The notes under the pieces are model-generated. The model ran no database searches and was not told the origin of the DNA. It was given only the letters and a program-made list of their open reading frames with translations. From assembly GCF_011046735.1 (NCBI RefSeq), contig NZ_CP049258.1, positions 5,784,001-5,848,000 on the forward strand: a stretch of DNA of 64,000 bases, read 5' to 3'. The DNA comes from Nordella sp. HKS 07. Lineage in GTDB: Bacteria; Pseudomonadota; Alphaproteobacteria; Rhizobiales; Aestuariivirgaceae. Made by a program: the position numbers and the translations under genes. Below, piece by piece: positions 44,831 to 62,490 of the stretch. Positions within the stretch are counted from its first letter, which is position 1. Each line of letters begins with the position of its first letter.

Positions 44831-44952
44831 CAATTCACCTTCTCAAAAATGCTCCCGTTGGAGCGGCGCGCATAATAGGGATGAGGATCAACCCTCGCAA
44901 GCGCCGCTTGGCTCTGCTAGTAGGATTTGAGAATCTCGGGTAGGGGACTGAT

Positions 44953-45690
44953 ATGGCTCAGAAATCACCAAAACCGCTGGTCGCCGGTAACTGGAAGATG
45001 AACGGCACGACCGCCGCCCTGAAGGAAGCCCGGCTCCTGGCCGGCATGCTGAAGGACGTGCGCCTGAAATGCGAAGTCATGATCTGCCCGCCGGCGACCC
45101 TCATCACCAGCATCAAGTCGGTGGTCAAGGGCGCCAAAATCAGGCTCGGCGGCCAGGACTGCCATTGGCATGCGCATGGCGCCCACACCGGCGACATTTC
45201 CTCTGAAATGCTCGAGGATGCCGGCTGCAGCGCGGTGATCGTCGGCCATTCCGAGCGCCGCGCCGATCACGGCGAAAGCGACGAGACGGTAAGGCTTAAG
45301 GCGGAAGCGGCCTACAGGGCCGGCCTCACCGCCATTATCTGCATCGGCGAGACGCTCGATGAGCGCAAGGCCGGCCGCACCCTCGAGGTGATCGCGCGCC
45401 AGCTGAAGGGATCCTTGCCGATGAATGCGGTCCCCACCAATACCGTCGTCGCCTATGAGCCGGTCTGGGCCATCGGCACCGGCCTTACCCCCACCGTCGA
45501 GCAAGTGGCGGAAGTCCATGCCTCGATCCGCGCCAAGACCGATCCGGCTCTGCGCATCCTTTATGGCGGTTCCGTCAAGCCCGGCAACGCCGCCGAGCTG
45601 ATGGCGGTCGCCAATGTCAATGGCGCGCTGGTCGGCGGCGCGAGTCTCAAGGCCGCCGACTTCATCGGCATCATCAAGGCCTATACATAA
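44953..45690 (+). CDS. tpiA: Triosephosphate isomerase
   Basis: A 245-residue glycolytic enzyme interconverting dihydroxyacetone phosphate and glyceraldehyde 3-phosphate. Active-site Lys is in [14 protein letters not shown], the electrophile His in [13 protein letters not shown], and the catalytic Glu plus loop 6 in [32 protein letters not shown] binds phosphate. Divergent from ppiD. In many relatives secG follows; here two accessory genes intervene. Confidence 0.97.
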
Positions 45691-45693
45691 ATT

Positions 45694-46314
45694 TCAGAAG
45701 GATTGGACGGCGAGCAGCACGCCCAGGCCGATCAGGATCGAGCCCGAGGCCGTGAACAGCACACGGTTGCCGCGCGGCTGAGCAAAGAGGCGGCCGCGGG
45801 CCAGCGCGGCGAGGCCGACGGCGCCGAGATCGGCGAACGACAGCGCCAGATTGACGATCACGCCGAGCGCCAGAAATTGCAGGCCGACCGGCCAGGCGGC
45901 CGCGGGATCGACGAATTGCGGAAGAAAGGCCACGAAGAACAGCGCCGTCTTGGGATTTAGTATCTCGACGACGATGCTTTCCCGGAAGGCGGCCTTGCCT
46001 GAGGAAGCCGCTTCGGCTTGCGGGCCGGCGGTTCCTGATAGCATCCGCAAGCCGAGCCAGACCAGATAAGCGGCGCCGGCCAGCTTCAAGGCGACATAGA
46101 GGCCGGGAAAATGTGTCAGGACCGCAGCAAGTCCGATGGAAGCGGCGATGATGTGGGCATAGCATCCGATATGGATGCCGAGCGCCGCCATGATGCCCGC
46201 CCGGCTGCCAAATGCCATGGTCTGCGCCGTCATATAAAGGATCGCAGGGCCCGGCATGACCGCGAACAGCAAAGTGGCGAAGAGAAACGGCAACAAATGT
46301 TCGATGGGCGGCAT
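45694..46314 (-). CDS. LysE/RhtB-family amino acid exporter
   Basis: A 206-residue inner-membrane protein with six hydrophobic segments. PFLFATLLFAVMPGPAILYM is the family's opening motif, AYLVWLGLRMLSG marks the middle, and FRESIVVEILNPKTALFFVA is the conserved central loop. It exports amino acids or related metabolites; the exact substrate is not evident. Convergent with tpiA (3-base gap) and divergent from the LuxR gene. Confidence 0.9.
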   Translation of the reverse strand: MPPIEHLLPFLFATLLFAVMPGPAILYMTAQTMAFGSRAGIMAALGIHIGCYAHIIAASIGLAAVLTHFPGLYVALKLAGAAYLVWLGLRMLSGTAGPQAEAASSGKAAFRESIVVEILNPKTALFFVAFLPQFVDPAAAWPVGLQFLALGVIVNLALSFADLGAVGLAALARGRLFAQPRGNRVLFTASGSILIGLGVLLAVQSF

Positions 46315-46478
46315 GATGACCTCTCCAGAGAGTCGCCGCTATCGCAGCTTCCGGAAAGGCGCACCTCCTTCAAACAGAGGAGGAGAGTGTTGAGGAACAT
46401 CGCTTTCTAGCGATCAGGATAACTGAATAGTTAAGCTCTGGCCCTATGCAGCGGTGAGACGACATTTATGATCGCCGC

Positions 46479-47666
46479 ATGAAGAGCAAGGCCCTCTCTC
46501 CAAAAATTATCGAGCGTAAGAATAACTCGCCATCCGTCGAGGAGATTTCGACGGTCATCGGCCTCATTTATGATTGCGCGCTCGATCCGGCACGCTGGGA
46601 CAGGGCGCTCGCGGCCTTGACCCAGTTGTTCAACTGCCATGGCGCGCTGCTCGTGATGTTCGATCTCGCGCAAGGCCGCGCCGTCTTCTCGAAGTCGCTC
46701 AATATTTCTCCGTACTGGCTCATTGAGCTCGACCGCCATGCCGCCGAGCTCGCCTCGTGGAAGCGGCTCTATTACGCGCCGGACTGGTCGATCGACGAAC
46801 CGCAGGCCAATTCGCGCAACGTCCCGGCCGCCGTTCTCGCGGCCTCACCCGTCAACGCCGAGTGGAACGCGCCGCAGGACCTCGTCGACACGCTGCAACT
46901 GGTGCTGATGCGCTCGCCGACCCGGCATGCCCAGCTCGCCATGAGCCGGCACCGCGAAATGGGCATCATCACCGAGCGCGAAATGGCGCTTGGCCGATTG
47001 CTGCTCCCTCATATCAGGCGCGCCGCGATGATCGGCGATGTGATTGACCTCAAGACGGTGGAGTGCGAACGCGCGCATCAGGCGCTCGATGCCCTGATGG
47101 CCGGCGTCGTGATGACCGACAAGCGGGGGCTTATCCTCAGCTCCAACAAGGCCGCCGAGACGATGCTGAGGCAGGGCCGGCCCATTCATGCGGCGGGCGG
47201 CATGATCCGGACCGAGGATCCGGCGTCGTCCCTGAAGCTCATTGCGGCCATCGCGCAGGCCGGCGACCGTGTGATCGGCGCGGACAGCAAGGCGAGGGCG
47301 GTTCGGCTGACCCGCGCTGGCGACCCTCCGATGCTGGCTCATATTCTGCCGCTGGAAGAGGGCGATGTCCGCTCCAGGCTGCATCCCGGCGCCAAGGTCG
47401 CGATCTTCATCGGCCCAGTGTCGGCGGCGGCGCATGGGGCGGAGGCCATGTCGGTCGCCTATGACCTGTCGCCGATGGAGACGCGCTTGCTCGACGGCCT
47501 GCTGCAAGGACAGAAGCTCGCGGAAGCCGCAGAAAGGCTCGGTATCGCCGAGACGACGGCGCGCACCCATCTCGGCAACATATTTGGCAAAACCGGGGTG
47601 TCGCGCCAGAGCGATTTCATCCGGCTCGCCACCGAAATGGCCTCGGCGATCACGCTTCAGAATTGA
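46479..47666 (+). CDS. LuxR-type (helix-turn-helix) transcriptional regulator
   Basis: A 395-residue regulator. The C-terminal 65 residues form a LuxR-type HTH: YDLSPMETRLLDGLLQGQKL, AERLGIAETTARTHLGNIFG and KTGVSRQSDFIRLATEM. The N-terminal part (from EEISTVIGLIYDCALDPARW) resembles large LuxR proteins with a PAS-like or unknown sensor domain and no receiver domain. ALDALMAGVVMTDKRGLILS near residue 205 is PAS-like. Signal and targets are unknown; the divergent exporter is a possible target. Confidence 0.85.
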   Translation: MKSKALSPKIIERKNNSPSVEEISTVIGLIYDCALDPARWDRALAALTQLFNCHGALLVMFDLAQGRAVFSKSLNISPYWLIELDRHAAELASWKRLYYAPDWSIDEPQANSRNVPAAVLAASPVNAEWNAPQDLVDTLQLVLMRSPTRHAQLAMSRHREMGIITEREMALGRLLLPHIRRAAMIGDVIDLKTVECERAHQALDALMAGVVMTDKRGLILSSNKAAETMLRQGRPIHAAGGMIRTEDPASSLKLIAAIAQAGDRVIGADSKARAVRLTRAGDPPMLAHILPLEEGDVRSRLHPGAKVAIFIGPVSAAAHGAEAMSVAYDLSPMETRLLDGLLQGQKLAEAAERLGIAETTARTHLGNIFGKTGVSRQSDFIRLATEMASAITLQN

Positions 47667-47896
47667 TCCTCATGCGGCGCGCCGGAAAACGGAAGCCGTT
47701 GGGCCGGGCGGACCGTCCGTCCGGCGTTTCAAGAGATGAGATGAGTGTTTCAGTATAACTCTTTGAATTGTAGGGGGTATCCATATTTGGCTGCGGCCCT
47801 GGCAGGATCGAATGATGGCGCGTCTTGCCGAAGGGTTGCCTCGCTCCCATATCCGCGCTAGACGCTGCCACCGAATTTCGAAATCGGACCCTCCAG

Positions 47897-48298
47897 ATGC
47901 AAACCGTCCTCCTAGTCGTTCATCTCATCATCGCCTTGGCCCTGATCGGCGTCGTGCTTCTTCAGCGTTCCGAAGGTGGTGCCCTCGGGATCGGCGGCGG
48001 CGGCGGTGCCGGCTCGCTCTTCTCGGCGCGCGGCGTCGGCAATACGCTGACCCGCACCACGGCCATTCTGGCGGTCATCTTCTTCATGACCTCGATCGGC
48101 CTGACATTGCTCTCGGGCCGCACCGGCGGTGGATCGCTCTTCAATTCCCCGGCGACCCAGCAAAACCAGGGCCAGTCGGCGCCGACCGGGTCGGGTGGGA
48201 GCGTCCTGCCGACGCTGCCGCCGGCGGGTCAGAATCAGAATCAGCAAGGTGGTGGCTCGGGTGGCACCGGGCAGCCGCAGGTTCCTGTTTCACAGTAG
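47897..48298 (+). CDS. secG: Preprotein translocase subunit SecG
   Basis: A 133-residue inner-membrane subunit of SecYEG. Two helices (TVLLVVHLIIALALIGVVLL and LAVIFFMTSIGLTLL) flank the conserved QRSEGGALGIGGGGGAGSLF and ARGVGNTLTRTTAI loop. The C-terminus is a Gly/Gln/Pro-rich tail (QNQNQQGGGSGGTGQPQVPV) often seen in alphaproteobacteria. The ATG at 47897 is chosen because the frame upstream has no family likeness. pyrG follows, as in relatives. Confidence 0.95.
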   Translation: MQTVLLVVHLIIALALIGVVLLQRSEGGALGIGGGGGAGSLFSARGVGNTLTRTTAILAVIFFMTSIGLTLLSGRTGGGSLFNSPATQQNQGQSAPTGSGGSVLPTLPPAGQNQNQQGGGSGGTGQPQVPVSQ

Positions 48299-48319
48299 TT
48301 TGTTTCACAGCTTTCCACA

Positions 48320-48348
48320 GAAGCCCGGACCTCAGAAATCCGGGCTTC
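48320..48348 (+). terminator. Hairpin between secG and pyrG
   Basis: GAAGCCCGGA (48320-48329) pairs with TCCGGGCTTC (48339-48348), a 10-bp stem with a 9-base loop. No T run follows, so it may attenuate or protect the transcript and not end it fully. Confidence 0.45.
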
Positions 48349-48376
48349 GAATCGTATGGATGAGAGGTTAGATTAG

Positions 48377-50011
<1,635 letters not shown>

Positions 50012-50020
50012 GAGAGCTGC

Positions 50021-50683
50021 CTACCAGCCTATCCTGCTGCCGTCGAAACTGCGGAATGAGCCGTTGTTACCGGGGGCAGCGGCGTCGATGACCGCGCGAA
50101 GACCCTGGGCGCTTTCCGTCACTGGCAGATCGGCTTGAGGCCCGCCCATGTCGGTCTTCACCCAGCCCGGATGCAGTGCCAGGAAGATGAGCCGGTAATC
50201 GAAGGCGAGCTTGGCCGTGGCGATATTGAGCGCCGCCTTGGAGCAGCGATAGGCGTAGTCGCCGTCGGCATCGAGGCCCTCGGCTACCGAGCCGGCGCGG
50301 CTGCTGATATTGGCGACGATGCGACGCCGCCCGCGTTCAAGATGCGGCCGGAAGGCCTTCACCATAAGAAGTGGCCCCAACGTATTGATGCGGAGGGTGG
50401 TGAGGAAATCGTCTGTGGACAGAGTGTCAAGGCCGCCGGTGTCGCCGCGCCGGGCGGCGTTGTTGATGAGAACATCAACAGGCTGTGCCGCGAGATCAGT
50501 GGCGAGGGCTTCAATGCTTTCCGCTTCTCCGGTATCGAGTGTCTTCCAGGTAACAGAGCCGGCGAGGGCGGGCGCGTCAGCGGGCCTTCGGTTGCAGGCG
50601 AGGACACGGTGACCGGCGTCGGCATATTGCCGTGTGAGCTCAAGGCCCAGGCCTCGATTGGCGCCGGTAACAAGGATCGTCAT
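50021..50683 (-). CDS. Short-chain dehydrogenase/reductase
   Basis: A 220-residue NAD(P)-dependent SDR. The cofactor loop is MTILVTGANRGLGLELTRQY, with LINNAARRGDTGG in the middle, Ser in ANISSRAGSVAEG and the catalytic pair in YAYRCSKAALNIAT. It resembles C-factor-like SDRs. I prefer the ATG at 50683; one at 50713 is possible. It is the last gene of the LacI operon, 78 bases after the beta-glucosidase, so it may act on a product of that pathway. Substrate unknown. Confidence 0.87.
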   Translation of the reverse strand: MTILVTGANRGLGLELTRQYADAGHRVLACNRRPADAPALAGSVTWKTLDTGEAESIEALATDLAAQPVDVLINNAARRGDTGGLDTLSTDDFLTTLRINTLGPLLMVKAFRPHLERGRRRIVANISSRAGSVAEGLDADGDYAYRCSKAALNIATAKLAFDYRLIFLALHPGWVKTDMGGPQADLPVTESAQGLRAVIDAAAPGNNGSFRSFDGSRIGW

Positions 50684-50761
50684 CGGATGTCCATTCTCGA
50701 GATTGCGCGTCATGGCCGATCCACAATGTTCCAGAGCAATCGATTTTTTACCGCAAGGCTT

Positions 50762-52171
50762 TCAGGCGGCCGGCTTGGCGCTCTGGCTGGCTGAAGAATT
50801 GCGGGCGATCGCGGCATAGACATGGCCGCTGAATTTGATGCGCCGCGTCTGGTCGGCAAAGTCGACATGCACGATGCCGAAGGGCGTCGAATAGCCATAG
50901 GCCCATTCGAAATTGTCCATCAGCGTCCAGGCGAAATAACCCTTCACCGGTACGCCGCGGCGCATGGCGCGCGCCATATAGTCGAGATGATCGATATGAT
51001 ACTCGGCGCGCAGGACATCGTGGATGGCGCCGTCTGGCGTCACGCGCTCGGCCGTCGTGGCAAAGCCGTTCTCGGAGATGTAGATTGCCTTGGGTCCATA
51101 TTGCTCATGCACATAGACGAGTATGTCCTCGATCGACTCCGGCCAGACTTCGTACTTCACCGCCGAGTAGCGCCCGGGCGGATTGACACGCTCGAAATTC
51201 AAGGGCGGCAGCTCCGAGCCCGCCGCCATGATCGAGCGGCGATAGATGTTCACGCCCAGATAATCGAGGGGAGCGGCGATGATCTCACTATCGCCGGCGC
51301 GGATCTCGGGCAGCATACCGCCGCAAAGATCGAGCATCGTCTCAGGGTAACGGCCCTTGAACAGCGCATCGAGGAACCAGCGGTTCTGCGCGGCCTCGAA
51401 GCGCCCGGCGGCGGCGACGTCGGCCGCCTTGTCGGATGCCGGTATCACCGTGTTGAGGTCGAGCACGATGCCGATATCCGCCCCCTCCACATTGGCGCGG
51501 ATCGCCGGCACAGCCAGACCATGGGCGAGCAAGGCGTGATGACTGGCGCTTAAGCCCCCTTTGGCGCCATCCTTCAGGCCGGGCGCGTCCTCGCCGGTCG
51601 CGTACCCGCTCCAGCAGAAGGTCCAGGGTTCGTTCAGGGTCGTCCATTGCTGGACACGGTCGGTCAGCGCACGGCTCACCAGATCGGCATAGTCGGCGAA
51701 GCGATGCGACGTCTCGCGGCTGTACCAGCCGCCTCTGTCCTGCAACGCCTGTGGCAGATCCCAGTGATAGAGGGTCAGGAAGGGCTCGATGCCGGACTCG
51801 GTAAGGCCGTCGATCAGCCGCTTGTAGAAATCGAGGCCGGCCGCGTTGATCTTGCCTGCGCCATCCGGCTGGATGCGCGGCCAGGCGAGCGAAAAGCGAT
51901 AGGCGCCGAGGCCCAGTTCGCGCATGAGCCGGATGTCTTCCGGCCACCGGCGATAGTGGTCGCAGGCGACGTCGCCGGTGCTGTCATCGACGATGACACC
52001 GGTCTGGCGGGTGAAGCGGTCCCAGATGCTTTCGCCCTTGCCGTCGGCTTTGGGCGCGCCCTCGATCTGATAGGCGGCGGTGGCGGCGCCGAAGACGAAG
52101 GGGCCCGGCACATGCAGGGACCGCGCGCGCGCCATCAGCCGTTCCATGTCCTCAGCGGTGTTTGACATCAT
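50762..52171 (-). CDS. Beta-glucosidase, glycoside hydrolase family 1
   Basis: A 469-residue retaining glycosidase without signal peptide, so cytosolic. FVFGAATAAYQIEGAPKADG is the GH1 N-terminal signature; the acid/base Glu is in WTTLNEPWTFCWSGYATG and the nucleophile Glu in KAIYISENGFATTAE. GYFAWTLMDNFEWAYGYSTP binds the glycone. It overlaps the end of the permease gene by about 20 bases and is therefore coupled to transport. Hydrolysis of an imported beta-glycoside is the natural inference, although the transporter is of an amino-acid type. Confidence 0.93.
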   Translation of the reverse strand: MMSNTAEDMERLMARARSLHVPGPFVFGAATAAYQIEGAPKADGKGESIWDRFTRQTGVIVDDSTGDVACDHYRRWPEDIRLMRELGLGAYRFSLAWPRIQPDGAGKINAAGLDFYKRLIDGLTESGIEPFLTLYHWDLPQALQDRGGWYSRETSHRFADYADLVSRALTDRVQQWTTLNEPWTFCWSGYATGEDAPGLKDGAKGGLSASHHALLAHGLAVPAIRANVEGADIGIVLDLNTVIPASDKAADVAAAGRFEAAQNRWFLDALFKGRYPETMLDLCGGMLPEIRAGDSEIIAAPLDYLGVNIYRRSIMAAGSELPPLNFERVNPPGRYSAVKYEVWPESIEDILVYVHEQYGPKAIYISENGFATTAERVTPDGAIHDVLRAEYHIDHLDYMARAMRRGVPVKGYFAWTLMDNFEWAYGYSTPFGIVHVDFADQTRRIKFSGHVYAAIARNSSASQSAKPAA

Positions 52172-53783
52172 ATTTCCTCTCGATGGATGTGATCAGGCTC
52201 GCGGCGGCGAGGGTGAGCAGCACATAGAAGATCGCCGCGGAATTATAGGGCGCGAAGGGCAGGAAGCTCGCCGACTGGAATTCGCGCATGCGCTGGGTGA
52301 TGTCGCGGATCGACAGGATCGACAGCAGCGACGTGTCCTTCAGAATGGCGATGAATTCATTGCCGAGCGGCGGGATGATGACGCGGAAGGCCTGCGGAAT
52401 GATGACCAGCCGCGCCGTGGTCCAGCGGCTCAATCCAAGGCTGCGCGCCGCCTCGATCTGGCCCGGCGGCACCGCCTTGAGGCCGGCCCGGAATATTTCG
52501 GCAAGATAGGCGAAATAAGCGAGCGCCATGGCGGCGATGCCGCGCATGAGATTGGGCGGATCGATGAAGCCGCCCGTCCCCTCCTTGAGGGCGCCGCTGA
52601 GCGGCAGTCCGACATAGAGGACAACGACCAGCATGGGGATGCCGCGCAAGATGTCGATGATGAATTCAGCGCCGATCGAGAGCGGGTGGCGCTGATGCAG
52701 CAGGCCGCCGAATGTGAGAAGCGCGGTGACGATTGCCGCGATGGCGAAAGCCGTGCCGGCGGATTTGTTGTGGTCGGGAAGCGAGGCAGTCTGCCAGAAT
52801 GCGGCACTGTCCGATGTGAGCGCTTGTGAAGGCACGAGGGCGGCGCTCACATCCTGGGCTTGCGCTACGGCCTTGAGCGCCGCCTCGGCGGTGGCGAAGG
52901 TCTTGAGCGGCAGCTCGTCGACCTCCGGTGCGCCGGGGAATTGCGCGAAGCGCACGGCATCGATGAGGCTGCGCGGCGTGTTCTGGATGACCGCCACTTT
53001 TCCGGTCAGCGTGCCGGCGAGGGTATAGGGAATAGCAGGCTGCAGGAATTGCCAGGCGGCACCGGCGGCGAACAGCGCCGCGATAGCCGGAAAGACGAGG
53101 AAGCTGCGCCTCACCAGCTGGAGCTGGAGCAGCATGACCCAGCAGAGGCCAAGCAGGATCGCCAGGATATAAGCGAGGATTGCGGCGCGGATCGAGGTCG
53201 CGAGCCCGGCTGCGAAGCCCAGATAGGCGAAGAGCAGGAGATAGAGGAGGCCGGCGCCGTTGATGGCCGCGAGTCCCCAGAGGGCGATGCGACGCAACCG
53301 CTCTGGCGCGCGGCTGAAGAAGAAGGCGAAGCCGGCGAACGACAGGAGGGCATAGGCGAGGCAACTTGTCCGCGCAATCTGGGCGACGGCGGCCAGAGTC
53401 GCTTCAGTCAGGCGGCGCGGTGTCTCGCCCTTGATCACGAGATCGGAGGTGAAGGGGTCGACGCTGTTGGCGACGATGGAAGCGATGAAAGGCAGCGCCG
53501 TCGTGGTGACGGTGAGCCAGGCAGCTAGGGCGAGATTGAGCCCGGCCAGGATGAGGCTCATTTGCGGCCGCGATCGATACCAATGGAGCGCGGCCAAACC
53601 CGAGGCGAAGGCCGCCAGCAGCAGGACAAAGCCCGGCAGCAGAAGCGAAGAACCATGCTCGATACCGAGAATGGCGGCAAGCGAGCGGCGGTAGTCGGGA
53701 GAGGCGGCGAAGATATAGATGATGAAGGGCAGCGCCGAGAGGATGATGAGGTTGCTCGGCCGCAGTCTTTTCAGGAACCGCAT
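52152..53783 (-). CDS. Polar-amino-acid-type ABC transporter permease with long N-terminal extension
   Basis: A 543-residue membrane protein. Residues about 370-540 are a typical HisM-like permease core (GAEFIIDILRGIPMLVVVLY) with the ATPase-contact EAA loop EAARSLGLSRWTTARLVIIP. Typical family members have about 220-250 residues. Here about 200 residues with several extra helices precede the segment that looks like core TM1 (about 196-220), and a soluble stretch of about 110 residues (about 230-340, including AALKAVAQAQDVSAALVPSQ) is inserted before the rest. That stretch faintly resembles part of a binding-protein lobe. No ATPase gene lies nearby. It is in the LacI operon between the binding protein and the beta-glucosidase. 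Confidence 0.85.
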   Translation of the reverse strand: MRFLKRLRPSNLIILSALPFIIYIFAASPDYRRSLAAILGIEHGSSLLLPGFVLLLAAFASGLAALHWYRSRPQMSLILAGLNLALAAWLTVTTTALPFIASIVANSVDPFTSDLVIKGETPRRLTEATLAAVAQIARTSCLAYALLSFAGFAFFFSRAPERLRRIALWGLAAINGAGLLYLLLFAYLGFAAGLATSIRAAILAYILAILLGLCWVMLLQLQLVRRSFLVFPAIAALFAAGAAWQFLQPAIPYTLAGTLTGKVAVIQNTPRSLIDAVRFAQFPGAPEVDELPLKTFATAEAALKAVAQAQDVSAALVPSQALTSDSAAFWQTASLPDHNKSAGTAFAIAAIVTALLTFGGLLHQRHPLSIGAEFIIDILRGIPMLVVVLYVGLPLSGALKEGTGGFIDPPNLMRGIAAMALAYFAYLAEIFRAGLKAVPPGQIEAARSLGLSRWTTARLVIIPQAFRVIIPPLGNEFIAILKDTSLLSILSIRDITQRMREFQSASFLPFAPYNSAAIFYVLLTLAAASLITSIERKYDVKHR

Positions 53784-53805
53784 GATGTTTCCCCCGGGAC
53801 CACGG

Positions 53806-53834
53806 TCACTTCAGGCCTCATCGGCCTGAAGTGA
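53806..53834 (-). promoter_or_regulatory. Strong hairpin between binding-protein and permease genes
   Basis: TCACTTCAGGCC pairs perfectly with GGCCTGAAGTGA: a 12-bp stem with a 5-base loop, in the 68-base gap between the two genes. No T run follows. Such hairpins after binding-protein genes of ABC operons commonly stabilise the upstream mRNA or end part of the transcripts, so that the binding protein is made in excess. Confidence 0.7.
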
Positions 53835-53851
53835 TGGGCTGACCGTATTCG

Positions 53852-54598
53852 TTACTTCAGGCCCCAATATTTCTCGATGAGCTGGGCCAGGGTGCCGTCG
53901 TCCTTGATCGCCTGCAGGCCTTCATTGAAGGAGGCGACATGTTCGTCGCCCTTGCGGAAGACGAGGCCCAGGGGATCGGACTGCAGGTCCTTGATGCCGA
54001 CCACGAGTTCGCCGGCGAACTCCTTCTCATAAGCCTGACCATTGGCGCCGTTGATGACGACGCCGTCGACGTCCTTGTTCTTCAGGGCAAGGATGGCGGC
54101 GCTGAACGTGTCATAGGCGGCGACCTTGTCCTTGCCGACCAGGGTCTCGGCGAGCTGCGCATCGGTCGTGTTCGCCTGGGCGGAAAGCTTCTTTCCCTTG
54201 CTTTTGAAATCCTCGACGGTGAGGGCCTGATCGGCGACGCGCACGAGAATGGCCTGGCTGTTGACGATATAAGGATCAGTGAAATCCATCGCCTTCTTGC
54301 GTTCATCGGTGATCGAGACGCCTGACGCAACCAGATCGAAGTTGCCCTGATCGAGTGCCGCGAAGATGCCATCCCAGCCGGTGGTGACGAATTCGGCCTT
54401 GCAATTGAGCTTGGCGCAGATGGCGTTCACCACGTCGACGTCGAAGCCGACGATCTGGCCCGTCGCCTGGTCGACATACTCCATGGGCGGCGATGTCGTG
54501 TCGGAGCCCACCTTGAGCGTCTTGCCGCTGAGGTCGCCGGCTTGGGCGGGGCCGGCCAGCAGCAGGGCTGCGAAGGCGGCAAGCAAATATTTTATCAT
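53852..54598 (-). CDS. ABC transporter substrate-binding protein, family 3 (polar amino acid type)
   Basis: A 248-residue periplasmic binding protein. The ATG at 54598 opens the signal peptide MIKYLLAAFAALLLAGPAQA-GD. The fold is SBP family 3: KVGSDTTSPPMEYVDQATGQ, IVGFDVDVVNAICAKLNCK, DLVASGVSITDERKKAMDFT and LEKYWGLK-like ending (LIEKYWGLK). Members bind amino acids, and some bind opines or other amino-acid conjugates. It follows the LacI gene by 34 bases. With a beta-glucosidase and LacI regulator in the same run, the ligand may be a glycosylated or sugar-linked compound; this is inference. Confidence 0.92.
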   Translation of the reverse strand: MIKYLLAAFAALLLAGPAQAGDLSGKTLKVGSDTTSPPMEYVDQATGQIVGFDVDVVNAICAKLNCKAEFVTTGWDGIFAALDQGNFDLVASGVSITDERKKAMDFTDPYIVNSQAILVRVADQALTVEDFKSKGKKLSAQANTTDAQLAETLVGKDKVAAYDTFSAAILALKNKDVDGVVINGANGQAYEKEFAGELVVGIKDLQSDPLGLVFRKGDEHVASFNEGLQAIKDDGTLAQLIEKYWGLK

Positions 54599-54632
54599 GA
54601 CGTTTCCTCTCTGTTGCTCTTGTGCCACCGGC

Positions 54633-55697
54633 TCACGGCCGGACGAGCTTGTTAGCCTGCCGGACGACGAGGTCCGGCTGGTAGATTTCCTGCAGCGCCG
54701 CCGGTTCTTCGCCGGCGATGCGACGCAGGAAAAATTCTCCGAGCTTGCGGCCAAGCCGCTCGATCGGCAGATAGAAGGTGGTCAAAGGCGGGGAGAAATA
54801 GGCGCTGACATTGATGTCGTCATAGGCGATGACATCGACATCACGTCCCGCCGCAAGGCCCAGTTCCGATAACCCTGCGAGCACGCCGAGCGTGGTCGCT
54901 TCGTTGACGCAGATGAAACCCGTCGGCGGATCAGGCAGATGGCCGAGGCGCAAGGCGCTCTCCTTGCCGAAGCGGGGGCTGAGGCCGCCCATGGCCATGA
55001 GATCATCGCAGGGCGCGAGGCCCGCCTGGAGGAATGCCCGACGGAAGCCGTCAATGCGGTCCAGGGCATAGGAAAGCCGGCTGTCGGGATTGATGAGAGC
55101 GATGCGCTGGTGGCCGCCGGCGATCAGGCGCTGTGTCGCGGCATGCGCGGCCCAGTCATTGTCGACATCGACATGTGCATAGGTCACGGGCTTGCGGCAG
55201 CGGCCCAGCGCCACGAAGGGGAAGTTGCGCTCGACCAGGAAGTCGATGCGCGGGTCGTCCGCGCGGATGCCGGAGAAGATGAGTCCGTCGGCAAGACCGG
55301 TTTCCACAATGCGCTGGGCGACGATGCGCCCATCATCGGCGTCACGGATGACATGCACAGCGATATTGTAGGGTGAACCTTCGAGCGCCTGGCTGATGCC
55401 GCTGAGGATCTGGGTATATTCGACACCGTCCCATTCGAAGCCTTCGGCAACGATGACCGGCATCAGCACGGCGGCCTGAAAGGTCCTGCCGGCGCGCAGA
55501 GATACGCCGCGCATATTGGCCTGGTAGCCGACCTTGAGGGCGGCCTCGCGAATGCGCTCCTTGGTCTCGGCCGTGACCACGGGGGAATCCCGGAGCGCCT
55601 TGGAAATGGTGGCGATCGAGTAGCCGGTGGCCTGCGCCAGGGTCTTTACCGTGGGGCGCTGGCCAGCGGCTTGCGACTGCGGTTTTCTGGTGTTCAT
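54633..55697 (-). CDS. LacI-family transcriptional regulator
   Basis: A 354-residue repressor. The HTH is PTVKTLAQATGYSIATISKA and LRDSPVVTAETKERIREAAL, followed by a hinge (VGYQANMRGVSLRAGRTFQA) and a periplasmic-binding-protein-like effector domain (GLIFSGIRADDPRIDFL; INPDSRLSYALDRIDGFRRA). The ATG at 55697 is chosen over the frame opening at 55754, as it has GGTCGGAG just upstream. A LacI-type operator lies 43 bases before the start, consistent with autoregulation of the whole set through the SDR gene. Effector unknown, though the family points to a sugar or glycoside. Confidence 0.92.
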   Translation of the reverse strand: MNTRKPQSQAAGQRPTVKTLAQATGYSIATISKALRDSPVVTAETKERIREAALKVGYQANMRGVSLRAGRTFQAAVLMPVIVAEGFEWDGVEYTQILSGISQALEGSPYNIAVHVIRDADDGRIVAQRIVETGLADGLIFSGIRADDPRIDFLVERNFPFVALGRCRKPVTYAHVDVDNDWAAHAATQRLIAGGHQRIALINPDSRLSYALDRIDGFRRAFLQAGLAPCDDLMAMGGLSPRFGKESALRLGHLPDPPTGFICVNEATTLGVLAGLSELGLAAGRDVDVIAYDDINVSAYFSPPLTTFYLPIERLGRKLGEFFLRRIAGEEPAALQEIYQPDLVVRQANKLVRP

Positions 55698-55739
55698 CTC
55701 CGACCTTCGACCCGGCTCGCGATTGAGATTATATCCGAA

Positions 55740-55753
55740 TAAAATCGATTTCA
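55740..55753. promoter_or_regulatory. Candidate LacI-type operator
   Basis: TAAAATCGATTTCA is palindromic over AAATCGATTT with the central CG typical of LacI-family operators (general form TGAAA-nCGn-TTTCA). It lies between the divergent lacI-type gene and the MscS gene, in a short AT-richer promoter-like patch. Confidence 0.6.
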
Positions 55754-55830
55754 ATAAGGAGTTTTATCAAATGTGCCGTGAGGACGCGCGCCGTCTGGCG
55801 TAACGCGCCGGGCAGCGGTACAACCGCGCC

Positions 55831-58254
55831 ATGAGTCTGATCGATCTCCGCTTCCGCTATGCCGTGGCTGTATTCTGCGGTTTCCTCGTCTTCACGCTGC
55901 AGGCACTTGCCTTCGATCAGGCCATTCTGGGCCAGGCCGAGCGGGCGGCGGTATCGCTCAAGCAGGATTTGACCCGCATCCAGAACGAGCTATCGCTGCC
56001 GACGCTCACCTCCGACCAGCTCACCGATTTCCGCCGCCAGCTCGACGATGTCCGCGCCACATCGGTGCGCCAGTCCGAGAGCCTGAGAGGACCGCTTGTC
56101 GAGGTCGACCAGCAACTCAAGAGCATCGGGCCAGCTCCCGCCGACGGCACGAGCGAGCCGTCGGCCATCGCCGACCGGCGCACGGAATTGCAGAGTAGTC
56201 TGAATCGGATCAAGGCGGCGCAGGCGCAGCTCGATCTCGTCACCGTCGAGGCCGACCAGCAGATCGCCCGCGTCGCGCAATTGCAGCGCGATCAGTTTTT
56301 CAGCCGCCTGTTGGAGCGCACGGGATCAGTTCTATCACCGTCCTTCTGGTATGACGGTCTCACCGGCTCCGCGACTTTCTTCTCCAGGCTCAGCCAGCTT
56401 CTCGTCAACTGGTGGAAAGAAATCTCGCAGACCGGCGACCTCAGCGTCCTCTTTATCGTGCCGCTGATTCTGGGCGGGCTGGTCGTTCTCTATCACCAGA
56501 TTCGACGTTGGTTCATGCGCCGCTTCGGCAGCAGCCTGTTCGTGCGCAGCAGACCCCCGGACGACACCGATCGCCTGTGGCGCATTGTGCGCGGCGCCGT
56601 TTTTGCTGGTCTCTCCATCCTGGCTCTGTTCATCGCGTTTTACCTGAGCTTCGGTGCGGCCGGATTCTTGACCCCGCGGTTTGCCCAGTTCGTCTCGGCT
56701 TTTTCCGATCTGTTGATCACACCGGCGATCTTCGGCACGCTCGTCTACCGGATGGCGGCGCCGATCAACCCGGCCTACAGGGTGCTCAATCTCGATGACA
56801 AGGCGGCGGGTCGTTTCGCGTTTCTGACGACGCTTGCGGTCGTGCTCTCGGTGTTGAAGGACTCTTTTACTGAGATAGCTGCCGTCCTCTATCTGCCGTC
56901 CACCTTCATGGCGGCGCAGGGGGCGTCGGTCGCCATTGGCCTTATCGTCGTCATAGCGGCTATCCTCTTCATTGCCCGCAACCAGGAAGGATTGCCGAAG
57001 ACCGCGCATGACGGGGCGATCTATTTTACCTGGGCAAGAAAGTTCGGACCGCCGATCTGGCTCCTGCTGCTTGTCGCCACGGTCGCCCTCTGTCTCGGTT
57101 ATATCGCGCTGGCCGGATTCATCGCCGAGCAGATCGTCGACACTTCGCTCCTGATCGTCACCTTGCTGCTCGTCCATCACCTGACCGACGCGCTGGTGGT
57201 GTCGGGTCTCGATAGCGGCTCGAGCTTCGGCCAGTTCCTGCGCAGGATTACCGGGCTCGGCGAGCGCGGCGTCGCGCGCCTGAGCACGGTATTCCGCACC
57301 TTCATAGACCTGGCCCTCGTCCTCGTCGGCCTGCCGCTCCTGTTCTTGAACTGGACAGTCACCTGGGTCAGCTTCTCGAGCTTGCTCGACCGGGCCTTCG
57401 ACACGTTCAAGGTCGGCAACATCAGCTTCTCGCTATCGAGCATAGCTCTCATCATCACCGTCCTGGTCTGCGGCTTCCTGCTCACCAAGATCGTGACCCG
57501 CTGGCTCAATGCCCGCGTTCTCTCTCAGACCCAGATCGACAGCGGCGTACGCGACTCGGTTGTGAAAGGCGCCAATTACGCCGGTTATGTCGCCGCAGCC
57601 GGCTTTGCGCTTTCTGCCGCGGGTCTAGATTTTTCAAATCTCGCCATCGTCGCCGGCGCACTAGGCGTCGGCATCGGTTTCGGTCTGCAGTCGATCGTCA
57701 ACAATTTTCTATCCGGCCTCATTCTGCTGGCCGAGCGTCCGGTCAGGGCGGGTGATTGGGTCGACATCAAGGGCTCGGAAGGGATCATCAAGCAGATCAA
57801 TGTTCGCTCGACCGAGATCGAGACCTTCGACAACTGCTCCATCATCGTGCCGAACTCGCTGCTCATCACCGAGCCGGTCAAGAACTGGACGCATCGCGAC
57901 ACGATCGGCCGTTTCGTGGTGACGGTGCCCGCTTCGGTGAGCGCCGACCCGGTCGAGGTCAGGGATATCATTCTCAAGGCGGCCAAGGATCACGCTTTGG
58001 TGCTCTATCATCCCGAGCCCACTGTCACGCTCCGCGACTTCGGCCAGAACGGCTACATATTCGACCTCAAGGCCTATGTCGGCGACATTACCAGCGGCGC
58101 CAGCGTGGCGAGCGACATCCGGTTCTCCATTCTCGCGGCCTTCCAGGAGAACGGCATTCAACTGCCGCGCGCCTTCGCCGATGTGAGGGTCGGTGAGTCC
58201 GATGTGCCGGCGAGCCAGCCGGCAAGGACAACCGCGAAGCCGGCCAAGGCATGA
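55831..58254 (+). CDS. Large mechanosensitive channel, MscS family with DUF3772 N-terminus
   Basis: An 807-residue inner-membrane channel. A signal peptide (VAVFCGFLVFTLQALA-F) is followed by a coiled periplasmic domain of about 150 residues (DQAILGQAERAAVSLKQDLT to about 160) resembling DUF3772. About 10 helices come next, ending in the MscS pore helix and beta domain: GALGVGIGFGLQSIVNNFLS, LILLAERPVRAGDWVDIKGS and INVRSTEIETFDNCSIIVPN. It opens under membrane tension on osmotic down-shock. It is divergent from the LacI operon. Its stop overlaps the next start (ATGA). Confidence 0.92.
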   Translation: MSLIDLRFRYAVAVFCGFLVFTLQALAFDQAILGQAERAAVSLKQDLTRIQNELSLPTLTSDQLTDFRRQLDDVRATSVRQSESLRGPLVEVDQQLKSIGPAPADGTSEPSAIADRRTELQSSLNRIKAAQAQLDLVTVEADQQIARVAQLQRDQFFSRLLERTGSVLSPSFWYDGLTGSATFFSRLSQLLVNWWKEISQTGDLSVLFIVPLILGGLVVLYHQIRRWFMRRFGSSLFVRSRPPDDTDRLWRIVRGAVFAGLSILALFIAFYLSFGAAGFLTPRFAQFVSAFSDLLITPAIFGTLVYRMAAPINPAYRVLNLDDKAAGRFAFLTTLAVVLSVLKDSFTEIAAVLYLPSTFMAAQGASVAIGLIVVIAAILFIARNQEGLPKTAHDGAIYFTWARKFGPPIWLLLLVATVALCLGYIALAGFIAEQIVDTSLLIVTLLLVHHLTDALVVSGLDSGSSFGQFLRRITGLGERGVARLSTVFRTFIDLALVLVGLPLLFLNWTVTWVSFSSLLDRAFDTFKVGNISFSLSSIALIITVLVCGFLLTKIVTRWLNARVLSQTQIDSGVRDSVVKGANYAGYVAAAGFALSAAGLDFSNLAIVAGALGVGIGFGLQSIVNNFLSGLILLAERPVRAGDWVDIKGSEGIIKQINVRSTEIETFDNCSIIVPNSLLITEPVKNWTHRDTIGRFVVTVPASVSADPVEVRDIILKAAKDHALVLYHPEPTVTLRDFGQNGYIFDLKAYVGDITSGASVASDIRFSILAAFQENGIQLPRAFADVRVGESDVPASQPARTTAKPAKA

Positions 58255-59132
58255 GAGGCATCGACCATCTGGTGCTCTGCGGGCACGATCTCGGTGCAAT
58301 GCGCGACAGCTACACGGCGCTGGGCTTCACGCTGACGCCCGAGGCGCGCCATCCTTTCGGCACCGGCAACAGTCTCATCCAGCTCGAAGGCTGCTTTCTC
58401 GAATTGCTGAGCGTGATCGAGCCGAAGAAGATCACGCAAGCCGGGGCAGGGCACTTCTCCTTCGCCGCCTTCAATCGCGACTTCCTCGAACGCGGCGAAG
58501 GCATGTCGATGCTGGTTCTCGATTCCACCGATGCGCGCGCCGATGTGGCCGCCTTCCGCGCGGCGGGATTGCAGACTTATGAGCCGTTCGATTTTCAGCG
58601 CCAGGCGAAGCTTCCCAGTGGCGAAGAGGTGACTGTCGGCTTCTCACTCGCTTTCGCGACCGATCCGGCGCTGCCGAACATCGCTTTCTTCACTTGCCAG
58701 CAGCATGCGCCCGAACATTTCTGGAAGCCGCACTATCAGCGCCACGCCAACCGCGCCTTGACCATTCTCGATGTGAGCCTTGTTGCCGAGAGACCTGATG
58801 CTCATGCTGCCTTTCTTTCGGCTTTCGCCGGAGTCCCCGCCGAAGCCGTCGCCGGCGGCATCACGCTGCGCACCGCGCGCGGCAACATCAGCTGCATTAC
58901 GCCTCAAGCCTTCGCGCGGAGTTTCGGCCGCGCGCGCGATATGGGACAGGGCCCGCATTTCGGCGGCTTCACCGTCGGCGTGCGCCGGATTGCCAGGCTG
59001 GAGGAGGCGATCAGCGCCCCGGCCTACCAGCTTCGCAAGGATGGCGCTCATCGTGCCGTGCTCTCTGTTGACGTAAACGGTAGCGCTCTTGCGTTTTTTG
59101 CGTTGAACCGGCAAGACGATGAAGATGAGTGA
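58251..59132 (+). CDS. Glyoxalase-like (VOC superfamily) protein
   Basis: A 293-residue protein with a double VOC-like layout. The opening MRGIDHLVLCGHDLGAMRDS and LGFTLTPEARHPFGTGNSLI match the Glyoxalase_3-type domain, with FLELLSVIEPKKI as the next strand and AFFTCQQHAPEHFWKPHYQR later. Conserved His and Glu could bind a metal. The reaction is unknown. It overlaps the MscS gene by 4 bases and the thioesterase gene by 14, so the three are translationally linked; a functional link is not obvious. Confidence 0.82.
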   Translation: MRGIDHLVLCGHDLGAMRDSYTALGFTLTPEARHPFGTGNSLIQLEGCFLELLSVIEPKKITQAGAGHFSFAAFNRDFLERGEGMSMLVLDSTDARADVAAFRAAGLQTYEPFDFQRQAKLPSGEEVTVGFSLAFATDPALPNIAFFTCQQHAPEHFWKPHYQRHANRALTILDVSLVAERPDAHAAFLSAFAGVPAEAVAGGITLRTARGNISCITPQAFARSFGRARDMGQGPHFGGFTVGVRRIARLEEAISAPAYQLRKDGAHRAVLSVDVNGSALAFFALNRQDDEDE

Positions 59133-59562
59133 TGATGAAAGAATCTTGACGCGACGGGAAGAGATCGAGCGCTGGTGGCGTGGCGCCGGCTCGCCCTTCA
59201 ACGAAATCCTCGACATGCGGCTGGTGAGCCTGGGCAATGGCGAAGCGACCTTCGAGGCCGTGCCATCCCCCCGTTTCTACAACCCGCAGCAGCGCTGCCA
59301 CGGCGGCTATGCCGCCACCATGCTCGACAGCGCGATGGGCTGCGCGATCTTTTCCCGGCTCGGCAAGGAAGCCAATTTCGGCACCATCGAACTCAAGGTC
59401 AACTATGTGCGCGGCATCTTTGCCGAAACGGGCCTCTTGACCTGCACCGGGAAAGTCATTCATTTCGGCCGGCGCATCCAGACCGCCGAGGCCCGCATCA
59501 CCGACGCGGCCGGCAAGCTCTATGCGCATGGATCCGGCACTTTTATGGTCTATAACGAATGA
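59119..59562 (+). CDS. PaaI-family hotdog thioesterase
   Basis: A 147-residue hotdog-fold acyl-CoA thioesterase. The motif [20 protein letters not shown] (His-Gly-Gly followed by an acidic helix) and [15 protein letters not shown] are characteristic of PaaI-like enzymes. The start is at 59119 or 59125. Its stop overlaps the kdsA start (ATGA), so it is the last accessory gene before the core block resumes. Acyl-CoA substrate unknown. Confidence 0.9.
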
Positions 59563-60395
59563 AACCGAATACCACCGTACAGATCGGCAAGTTGAGCATC
59601 GGCAACAAGCTGCCGCTGACCGTGATCGCGGGTCCCTGCCAGCTCGAAAGCCGTGAGCATGCCTTCATGATGGCGGGCAAGCTCAAGGAGATCGCCCGGA
59701 AGCTCGGGATCGGCCTCGTTTACAAGTCCTCCTTCGACAAGGCGAACCGCACCAGCCTTACCGGCAAGCGCGGCCTTGGCCTCGAAAAGGCGCTTGCCGT
59801 CTTCGCCGACATTCGCAAGGAATTCGATCTGCCGATCCTCACCGACGTCCATGAAAATCATCAGTGCGCGGAGCTTGCACCGGTGGTGGACGTGCTCCAG
59901 ATCCCGGCCTTCCTCTCGCGCCAGACCGATCTCCTCATCGCCGCCGCCCGGACGGGCCGGGTGGTCAATGTGAAGAAGGGACAGTTCCTGGCGCCCTGGG
60001 ACATGAAGAATGTCGCGGCCAAGGTGGTCGAGAGCGGCAATCCCAATGTCATCCTCACCGAGCGCGGCGCTTCCTTCGGCTACAACACACTGGTGAGCGA
60101 CATGCGCTCCCTGCCGATCATGGCCGAGACCGGCTGCCCGGTGGTGTTCGACGCCACTCATTCGGTCCAGCAGCCCGGCGGCCAGGGAACGTCCTCGGGC
60201 GGCGACCGCCGTTTCGTGCCGGTTCTCGCCAAAGCCGCCGTCGCGGTGGGCGTGGCGGGTGTCTTCATCGAGACGCATCAGGATCCCGACAACGCGCCGT
60301 CCGACGGCCCCAATATGGTGCCGCTGGACAAGCTCGAAGCGCTGCTCACCGCACTCCTGGCGCATGACCGGATTGCCAAGGCGGATGCGGCCTAG
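59559..60395 (+). CDS. kdsA: 3-deoxy-8-phosphooctulonate synthase, metal-dependent type
   Basis: A 278-residue enzyme condensing arabinose 5-phosphate with phosphoenolpyruvate to KDO 8-phosphate for lipopolysaccharide. Motifs include [20 protein letters not shown] and [19 protein letters not shown]. The residue in [15 protein letters not shown] is Cys27, where the metal-independent E. coli enzyme has Asn, so this is the metal-dependent class. eno follows after about 100 bases in which I see no clear signal. Confidence 0.96.
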
Positions 60396-60494
60396 ACCGG
60401 GGGCGAATGACGCCGGATCCGGGGCCCGGAAGACGGACTTGCAATCGTCATCCGGGGCCAGCATAGAGACGCTCCGACCAGCCAACTGGAGTGA

Positions 60495-62490
<1,996 letters not shown>

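Follow-up and report, generated by a model that had tools for sequence, protein, structure and literature searches.

An oversized PAAT-type ABC permease of Nordella sp. HKS 07 with a predicted single lobe of a solute-binding protein

In type I ABC importers, the EAA segment of the permease is the contact site of the ABC ATPase. In the sugar family, MalF carries extra N-terminal helices and a folded periplasmic P2 domain (not known to derive from a solute-binding protein, SBP) on a type I permease, while in L. lactis GlnPQ the SBDs stand directly before TM1 of the permease. Permeases of the polar-amino-acid type (PAAT), such as HisQ-HisM and ArtQ, are compact, with 220 aa in a solved structure (Art(QN)2, PDB 4yms, chain D) and 212-238 positions in the matched NCBIfam PAAT models. 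GlnPQ has two complete SBDs, and its receptor domains are covalently linked (PMC11331510). The permease described here is encoded on the minus strand of a 64,000-nucleotide stretch of the Nordella sp. HKS 07 genome (hereafter the window, whose coordinates are used throughout):

52152..53783, minus strand: oversized PAAT-type ABC permease, ORF of 543 aa plus stop (ATG at 53783, stop at 52152), with BPD_transp_1 (2e-20) at residues 362-538
53046..53783, minus strand: N-terminal module (residues 1-246) of seven helices, taken to be transmembrane from the AF2 model and loop charges, with outer loops 28-48 and 93-126
52776..53045, minus strand: predicted periplasmic domain, residues 247-336, with the fold of SBP3 lobe 2 (AF2, Foldseek, VIA-align and profile comparison)
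52155..52775, minus strand: canonical permease core, residues 337-543 (Pfam, NCBIfam, profile and structure matches)
52440..52466, minus strand: EAA coupling segment (within residues 440-448), where an ABC ATPase makes contact (sequence; invariant positions)

With 543 residues the protein is about two and a half times as long as a usual PAAT permease, in agreement with an earlier note on this DNA that had called it more than double the usual size, and it falls into helices (1-246), a periplasmic alpha/beta domain (247-336) and a normal-sized core of about 207 residues (337-543). Relatives were drawn from the best 80 of 159, giving 81 loci (L011-L091) with one duplicate (L011 is at the same place as L013) and one locus cut by the contig start (L086); L010, which is on the minus strand in its locus and by coordinates at the same place as L012, was omitted. 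The permease alignment contains 47 rows (the Nordella protein and 46/81 loci), the alignment designated A5 excludes L059 and L065 (late starts chosen), and the SBP alignment contains the Nordella SBP and 37/80 SBPs. Homologues in the 47-row alignment are 44-87% identical to the Nordella protein and align over its full length, and in a nucleotide comparison with L012 third codon positions dominate the changes in all three segments (37/15/83, 13/7/30 and 11/3/52 at positions 1/2/3). On these sequence comparisons the entire length of the permease is coding and under selection; a frameshift, a fusion artefact and a wrong start were excluded by the full-length homologues together with the codon-position bias.

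The core shares its fold, its size and the EAA segment with the HisQ-HisM and ArtQ permeases, to which the Nordella protein adds 246 membrane residues and the predicted SBP-lobe domain. BPD_transp_1 scored 73.7 bits against a Pfam gathering score of 26.4 (residues 362-538), while the NCBIfam cut-offs of the named PAAT equivalogs (EhuD, ArtQ, GlnP, HisQ/M) were all missed, the best being EhuD with 106.9 bits vs 205.2. PHROGs matched the core alone, and a viral fold library gave no match at E 0.001 or below. Positions 24-212 of the EhuD model align to residues 342-538, and in the profile of the 47 permeases residues 350-543 align to 4yms 29-215; with the core beginning at 342-350 in both, its first helix is 337-363, directly preceded by the soluble domain. 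A soluble part inside the core, where the earlier note had put it (after the first core helix), is excluded. Helix 194-219, seemingly taken for core TM1 in that note, matched 4yms at an i-Evalue of 1.7e3 only. The EAA segment is mostly conserved in the 47 sequences, with Q442, E444, A445 and G450 invariant, and was assigned to the cytoplasmic side from loop charges and the core match.

About 200 extra N-terminal residues with several helices had been noted previously; the extension is real and longer, about 246 residues with seven helices in the AF2 model (9-27, 49-67, 73-92, 127-156, 161-189, 194-219 and 227-246). Net charges are +2.2, +2.1, +0.4 and +2.1 for the inner loops, which are short (4-8 residues), and +0.2, +0.1, 0 and -1.6 for the outer loops; since the inner loops are the more positive, the soluble domain is placed on the periplasmic side. 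Residues 1-250 gave only stray Pfam matches (best E 0.019, at most 2/20 members per family), and a PDB search with residues 1-340 led nowhere. Against 4yms_D the VIA-align 2 alignment starts at model residue 27, so that the N-terminal helix of ArtQ may be matched by a short stretch near the start of the Nordella protein.

The soluble segment had been put at about 110 residues; it exists, at about 90 (247-336). Its possible disorder, raised in the same note, does not apply, as the domain models as ordered, with an AF2 pLDDT of 77-89 per 10-residue block over 251-340 within the whole protein and a mean of 81.4 when modelled alone, and a disordered insert is thereby excluded. The comparison with SBP3 lobes proposed earlier gave a match to lobe 2. 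All of the top nine Foldseek rows are binding proteins or domains, including the GlnPQ SBDs, which are the best rows, BstB (7t1m) and SocA; the E-values are weak, none being at or below 0.001 (8b5d_B: E 0.021, prob 1.00, TMq 0.60). The best VIA match is SocA, the deoxyfructosyl-glutamine binding protein of Agrobacterium (6hqh, 5lom and 5l9o, Z 8.4-8.5; for 6hqh Z 8.5, rmsd 2.9, 83 aligned, chain 129-227), which is a complete soluble SBP for a sugar-amino acid conjugate; its Z of 8.5 is modest, many other SBPs come within Z 1 of it, and the same list has LCP proteins at up to 7.8. In hhalign the insert profile scored 28.1 (P 5.5e-5) against lobe 2 of 27 SBP3 rows, which include the SBP of the Nordella operon twice, vs 10.7 against lobe 1 of the same rows; none of 200 column shuffles reached 28.1 (best 20.0), and the reversed profile scored 9.5. 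Against the family of the operon's own SBP alone P was 0.16, which is not significant, and the broader profile was needed. A lobe-2 HMM matched the 47 permeases 30 times with an E-value of 10 or less (best 0.0039). Among the 15 matches listed, 13 lie at residues 255-325, the other two being one at 215-258 of L059, for which a start about 50 residues later had been set, and one stray at 425-441. SBP_bac_3 was absent from the six Pfam families matched by any of the 47 inserts at E up to 10, and a PDB sequence search with the insert returned no SBP3 match.

The weak binding-protein flavour reported earlier was thus correct and can be made more specific, as homology to lobe 2 of the SBP3 proteins (Foldseek, VIA-align, hhalign). 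Judged from profiles and the structural model, residues 247-336 are lobe 2 alone of the family-3 SBP fold, spanning the region between the two hinge strands. Lobe 1 is missing: the lobe-1 profile reaches only 10.7, and in the AF2 model the domain is flanked by membrane helices, its hinge-side ends entering helix 227-246 and core TM1 and not a lobe 1. GlnPQ likewise joins a family-3 SBP fold to a PAAT permease, whereas the Nordella permease has one lobe only in place of a complete SBD, a seven-helix module ahead of it and a separate SBP gene.

Six residues of the domain are invariant in the 47 rows (G257, T269, P270, P318, W330 and L335). In the hhalign registers T269-P270 and P318 map to ligand-facing positions of SBP lobe 2, the GTT motif and HisJ D161, the latter of which we take to be the Asp of lobe 2 that grips the amino group. 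Its replacement by an invariant Pro argues against a further amino-acid site of the canonical kind, as does the single lobe, so that of the second sensing or docking site suggested in the earlier note the docking half may stand, and by analogy docking of the separate SBP is the reading we prefer. The same positions bear on another reading, that the half-SBP is a tethered pseudo-receptor or gate whose former ligand face is turned to the membrane part or to its twin, where it would bind ligand or cap the pore and thereby sense or gate transport. Both hinge ends enter membrane helices in the AF2 model, so that the transmembrane module occupies the place of lobe 1, and ligand-facing positions are kept in 47/47 rows; against this, the amino-gripping Asp is lost and one lobe alone is unable to close on a ligand, and we consider this reading unlikely.

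The domain was found in 81/81 homologous loci (best 80 of 159 relatives), nearly all alphaproteobacterial and representing bacteria that live in soil or with plants, with a length of 86-91 residues in the 47 aligned sequences, and its motif is retained in L101, which is 39% identical. This retention, together with the six invariant positions, argues against its being a structural relic of a GlnP-like SBP-permease fusion that lost lobe 1, with the remaining lobe just stabilising the N-terminal module and having no role in transport. In favour of a relic, conservation is lower in the domain than in the core (mean pairwise identity 0.47 vs 0.75), and the receptor domains of GlnPQ, like this domain, are covalently linked (PMC11331510); on balance such a relic seems improbable to us. 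MalF rows occur among the structural matches of the permease. The P2 of MalF differs from the half-SBP domain in fold and position and is not known to derive from an SBP, so the parallel is positional only. Other long PAAT permeases of the Nordella genome (L093, 394 and 504 aa; L094, 391 aa) also consist of a PAAT core and extra residues, the two L093 proteins resembling AapQ/AapM. Neither the lobe profile nor the N-terminal profile finds any of them among the matches listed at E up to 10, which rules out that our permease belongs to these long Aap-like proteins.

Four further genes on the minus strand complete the operon:

54633..55754, minus strand: LacI-family regulator (Pfam; mechanical ORF, the true start may be further in)
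53852..54598, minus strand: solute-binding protein, SBP_bac_3 (Pfam 1.8e-41), with a signal-like N-terminus; ATG at 54598 chosen, the mechanical ORF beginning at 54754
50762..52171, minus strand: GH1 beta-glucosidase (TIGR03356, 566.8 bits vs a cut-off of 478.5)
50021..50713, minus strand: short-chain dehydrogenase (SDR), the next gene of the row (ORF; Pfam adh_short on the L018 homologue)

The order is LacI regulator, SBP, permease, GH1 or GH42 beta-glycosidase and SDR, and the GH1 gene starts with an ATG inside the end of the permease gene, the two sharing 20 nt; an ATG in that register is present in 59/81 loci. Among the loci of the best 80 of 159 relatives there is an SBP match in 80/81, a LacI-family regulator in 72/81 and an SDR in 70/81, while GH1 is present in 40/81, GH42 in 23/81, either in 63/81, both in 0/81 and neither in 18/81 (15/74 where at least 4 kb of downstream sequence is available). 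From the operon, the substrate is probably a beta-glycoside of an amino compound. For the fused kinase-aminotransferase we considered a hydroxylysine or phosphoethanolamine pathway, and hence collagen glycosides as a possible substrate.

Unlike the HisQ-HisM and ArtQ systems, the Nordella operon has no recognised PAAT ATPase gene of its own. No ABC ATPase ORF was found within 18 kb of sequence surrounding the permease (44001-62000 of the window), nor, by motif in ORFs of at least 150 aa and by tblastn (26/81 loci), in the flanks of 57/81 loci (best 80 of 159 relatives), and ATP therefore probably comes from another system. No PAAT ATPase that looked like the operon's own was recognised in the 81 loci, 71 of which have at least 3 kb on both sides. 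PAAT-type ATPase matches (45% or more) occur in 4/81. The one in L024 is encoded on the opposite strand and accompanied by a permease and, judged by eye, an SBP of its own; those in L043 and L069 are followed by another SBP (by eye), and that in L019 is a fragment of ~61 codons. Same-strand ABC ATPases are present in 15/81 loci, 2 of HisP type and 13 of 352-402 aa, and the three of these 13 that were tested are UgpC-type, above the cut-off. In 11/81 loci, of Ensifer/Sinorhizobium type and all with neither GH1 nor GH42, an ATPase (382-402 aa; UgpC-type in L051, the one tested) lies some 100-870 bp downstream of the aminotransferase fusion; as it adjoins the operon it could serve the importer there. 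In S. meliloti an ATPase gene of this kind is the first of a sugar ABC operon.

The Nordella genome contains at least 12 HisP-like ATPases (150 of 341 candidates scored), and 11/20 PAAT-like SBP and permease stretches examined in it are without a PAAT-type ATPase. The remaining permeases without an ATPase mostly have ordinary lengths (215-256 aa); the lengths of four longer ORFs among them (290-460 aa) assume that translation begins at the earliest available start codon. Both the 57/81 loci and the 11/20 stretches would suit an adaptor role, with the seven helices and the domain recruiting a shared ATPase or another membrane protein; that most such permeases are ordinary-sized indicates that sharing requires no module of this kind, and inner loops of merely 4-8 residues also make the idea very unlikely.

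We tentatively favour, with slightly less than even confidence, a type I importer that takes up beta-glycosides of amino compounds and in which the built-in half-SBP helps to dock the SBP and the ATPase is borrowed. The operon has a single membrane subunit, hence the permease would probably be homodimeric; its two half-SBP domains would flank the pore and keep the separate SBP in place, or orient it, during docking, by analogy with the P2 loop of MalF and MBP. The imported beta-glycoside would be split inside by GH1 or GH42, and, as the operon has no ATPase gene, ATP would come through that of another system, of PAAT or UgpC/MalK type; docking as such is independent of whether the operon has its own ATPase. 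It is quite unlikely that the homodimer instead uses two half-receptors, with the membrane part replacing lobe 1, to accept the substrate that the free SBP delivers and keep it above the pore; if this half-receptor reading were true, the substrate site would be divided between SBP-derived and membrane-derived halves.

The possibility, raised in the earlier note, of a common and already described subfamily holds in so far as the subfamily is conserved (best 80 of 159 relatives), while no published description was found: literature on the architecture, the substrate, shared ATPases and S. meliloti transport yielded no description of this protein, and plasmid records name the homologues merely "amino acid ABC transporter permease" where annotated. 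The half-SBP permease points to an operon that is so far uncharacterised and probably serves beta-glycosides of amino compounds, with an importer that is mostly without an ATPase gene of its own. To our knowledge, SBP docking and substrate handover in PAAT importers are still poorly resolved, and a natural permease with a built-in half-SBP would provide a direct test of which lobe matters for docking, and would inform how receptor-permease fusions arise or decay. A homologue on pSymB of the laboratory strain S. meliloti 1021 makes the system open to such testing.

The oversized permease is the third gene of a minus-strand row that resembles an operon:

54633-55754, minus strand, LacI regulator, the first gene of the row
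ATG about 54598, end 53852, minus strand, SBP3 (family 3 solute-binding protein, SBP) between the LacI regulator and the permease
52152-53783, minus strand, oversized permease, 543 residues encoded
50762-52171, minus strand, GH1 beta-glucosidase (TIGR03356, over its cut-off)
50021-50713, minus strand, SDR, after GH1

BPD_transp_1 (residues 362-538) is the sole Pfam domain in the permease, and the top NCBIfam rows, none over its curated cut-off, are PAAT permeases of 212-238 positions; the protein is itself a PAAT-type permease. Its end overlaps the GH1 start by 20 nt, and an ATG in that register is present in 59/81 homologous loci, being kept also where SDR comes next without GH1 between (L018, and L102 on S. 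meliloti R14 pSymB).

In the AlphaFold2 model built on 47 sequences (mean pLDDT 82.9, pTM 0.72; residues 492-509 below 50), seven long helices lie ahead of residue 247, followed by a soluble domain (247-336) running strand 251-257, strand 262-266, helix 271-278, strand 293-296, helix 299-307, strand 312-318 and strand 328-334, and by core helices at 337-363, 367-380, 384-402, 411-436, 440-448, 453-491, 495-502 and 511-538. The core matched the PAAT importer Art(QN)2 (4yms_D) both in Foldseek (39% identity, E 8.7e-8) and in VIA (Z 18.4, rmsd 2.9, 200 aligned). The earlier note had placed the soluble part inside the core, behind its first helix, which is wrong according to the model and the 4yms match, as the domain precedes that helix. 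Loop charges in the N-terminal module (1-246) obey the positive-inside rule, which argues for a periplasmic soluble domain, while those of the core are near neutral. Neither Pfam nor the PDB yielded a significant sequence relative for the N-terminal module, and it was not found apart from the rest of the permease in the phylum- and class-spread samples (398 and 385 genomes).

The genome containing the window measures 7.18 Mb, and within its family the permease occurs in 3/69 genomes, all of its own genus. Scanning one genome per species brought up 159 relatives, the best 80 of which formed the homologue set; aligned relatives are 44-87% identical to the window permease, the nearest being that of Aestuariivirga sp. 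YIM B02566 (87%). Judged by record titles, most of these best 80 of 159 belong to Rhizobiales- or Rhodobacterales-type genera or are MAGs of Alphaproteobacteria, and the only locus among them labelled outside the Alphaproteobacteria is in a Spirochaetaceae MAG (L090), perhaps through horizontal transfer or a binning error. In the spread samples, where few candidates were scored per genome, the permease matched 5/398 genomes (E <= 1e-10) and the N-terminal module alone 1/385 (E <= 0.001), own genome included in both. Homologues also lie on plasmids: 64 records matched, of which 53 are Sinorhizobium, 9 Ensifer and 2 Ruegeria, and pSymB of S. meliloti 1021 is one of these.

Modelled in isolation, the soluble domain retained the same seven elements (pLDDT 81.4, pTM 0.66). 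Foldseek rows 1-9 were all binding proteins or domains, mostly SBP3, with GlnPQ SBD1 (E 0.021, prob 1.00), BstB, SocA and an ancestral arginine binder among the rows and none at E 0.001 or below. The best VIA match was SocA 6hqh (Z 8.5, rmsd 2.9, 83 aligned), and the aligned chain ranges (e.g. 109-211, 129-227) are what we take, from general knowledge of SBP3 structures, to be lobe 2. LCP proteins (Z 7.8) and prephenate dehydratase (7.2) appear in the same list, so that the fold alone does not prove an SBP origin. Sequence profiles add weight to homology with lobe 2: compared with 27 SBP3 rows, the insert profile scored 28.1 (P 5.5e-5) on their lobe 2 and 10.7 on their lobe 1, while 0/200 column shuffles reached 28.06 (best 20.0), the reversed profile gave 9.5, and nine other permease stretches scored at most 17.3, the top one overlapping the insert. 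Against the operon's SBP family alone the insert profile was not significant. The alignment sets GKVAVIQNTP opposite KKLSAQANTT and, at its end, VSAALV opposite VDGVVI, and therefore puts T269-P270 on the ligand-facing GTT stretch and has the invariant P318 where the amino-gripping Asp would stand, a position occupied by N185 in the operon's SBP and by D161 in HisJ. We consider it unlikely that the domain acts as a pseudo-receptor or gate. The domain is present in 81/81 homologues, its motif is retained in a 39% identical homologue (L101), and a relic is an equally improbable reading.

An ATPase is expected for the permease, since its EAA segment is intact. None was found in the 18 kb around it, and over the 81 loci no PAAT ATPase of its own was recognised: the fetched flanks hold no ABC ATPase ORF in 57, opposite-strand ORFs alone (one or two) in 9, and one same-strand ORF in 15. 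PAAT-type matches (at least 45%) occur in four loci, by eye adjoining other SBPs in three (L024, L043, L069) and being a fragment in L019. ATP is therefore probably supplied by another system. Thirteen same-strand ORFs encode 352-402 aa, and the three tested (L051, L076, L091) are UgpC-type, over cut-off. Eleven of the 13 lie ~100-870 bp behind an aminotransferase fusion. These are Ensifer/Sinorhizobium-type loci, each lacking both GH1 and GH42, and a UgpC-type partner is conceivable there; in S. meliloti a similar-looking ATPase precedes genes for a sugar SBP and a pair of sugar permeases. In R14 pSymB, an ATPase-like stretch and an annotated sugar SBP (15605-16828) share one open frame of 813 codons (L102:14387-16828).

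The ATPase-less state is not unique to this operon, as 20 of 26 stretches examined in its own genome carry an SBP3 and a PAAT-like permease, with an ATPase at least 45% identical to PAAT ATPases in 9 and absent in 11, operon included; ATPase sharing may be widespread there. The ten others (L135, L137, L138, L140, L143, L145, L147, L148, L150, L151; below 45% within 12-14 kb) include several with weaker ATPase matches of 25-40%. Elsewhere in this genome a PAAT permease and ATPase lie within one 496-residue ORF (L096:4168-5658). Only 2/81 loci have another PAAT-like permease in their flanks, in both cases on the opposite strand, so the permease studied here is likely a homodimer.

Neighbours over the 81 loci are SBP (80), LacI (72), SDR (70), GH1 (40) and GH42 (23), the two hydrolases never together and both missing in 18. 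In many loci (48/81) the transporter is accompanied by a fusion protein of ~1010 residues (PRK06148) in which an APH kinase part, an M23 peptidase-like part and a class III aminotransferase part are joined; 46 of the 48 cover at least 800 of 1012 residues. That of L018 (8364-11402) has Pfam APH, Peptidase_M23 and Aminotran_3, with PRK06148 over cut-off, and the copy in the window's genome is away from the operon, at 4125747. Inspected by eye, the neighbours of L101 and L076 include genes resembling FAD amine oxidases. In the partner SBPs (53852-54598 and homologues) R102 is kept in 38/38, but the lobe-2 acid position 185 varies together with residue 38; the two resulting types, Ser38/Asn185 (27 of 38) and Tyr38/Asp185 (11 of 38), suggest a ligand switch within the family. 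We infer as substrate a beta-glycoside of an amino compound.

The permease architecture and its conservation are established, and the soluble domain is homologous to lobe 2 of an SBP. With one lobe only and no Asp, it does not belong to the SBP3 proteins, and in carrying half a receptor the permease differs from GlnPQ-like fusions. No description of such a permease was found in the literature searched, which lay largely outside subscription titles and included PMC8276074 and PMC12138971. An adaptor role for the seven helices and the half-SBP domain appears quite improbable. Our tentative preference is that the two half-SBP domains of the homodimer would dock or clamp the SBP in the periplasm.
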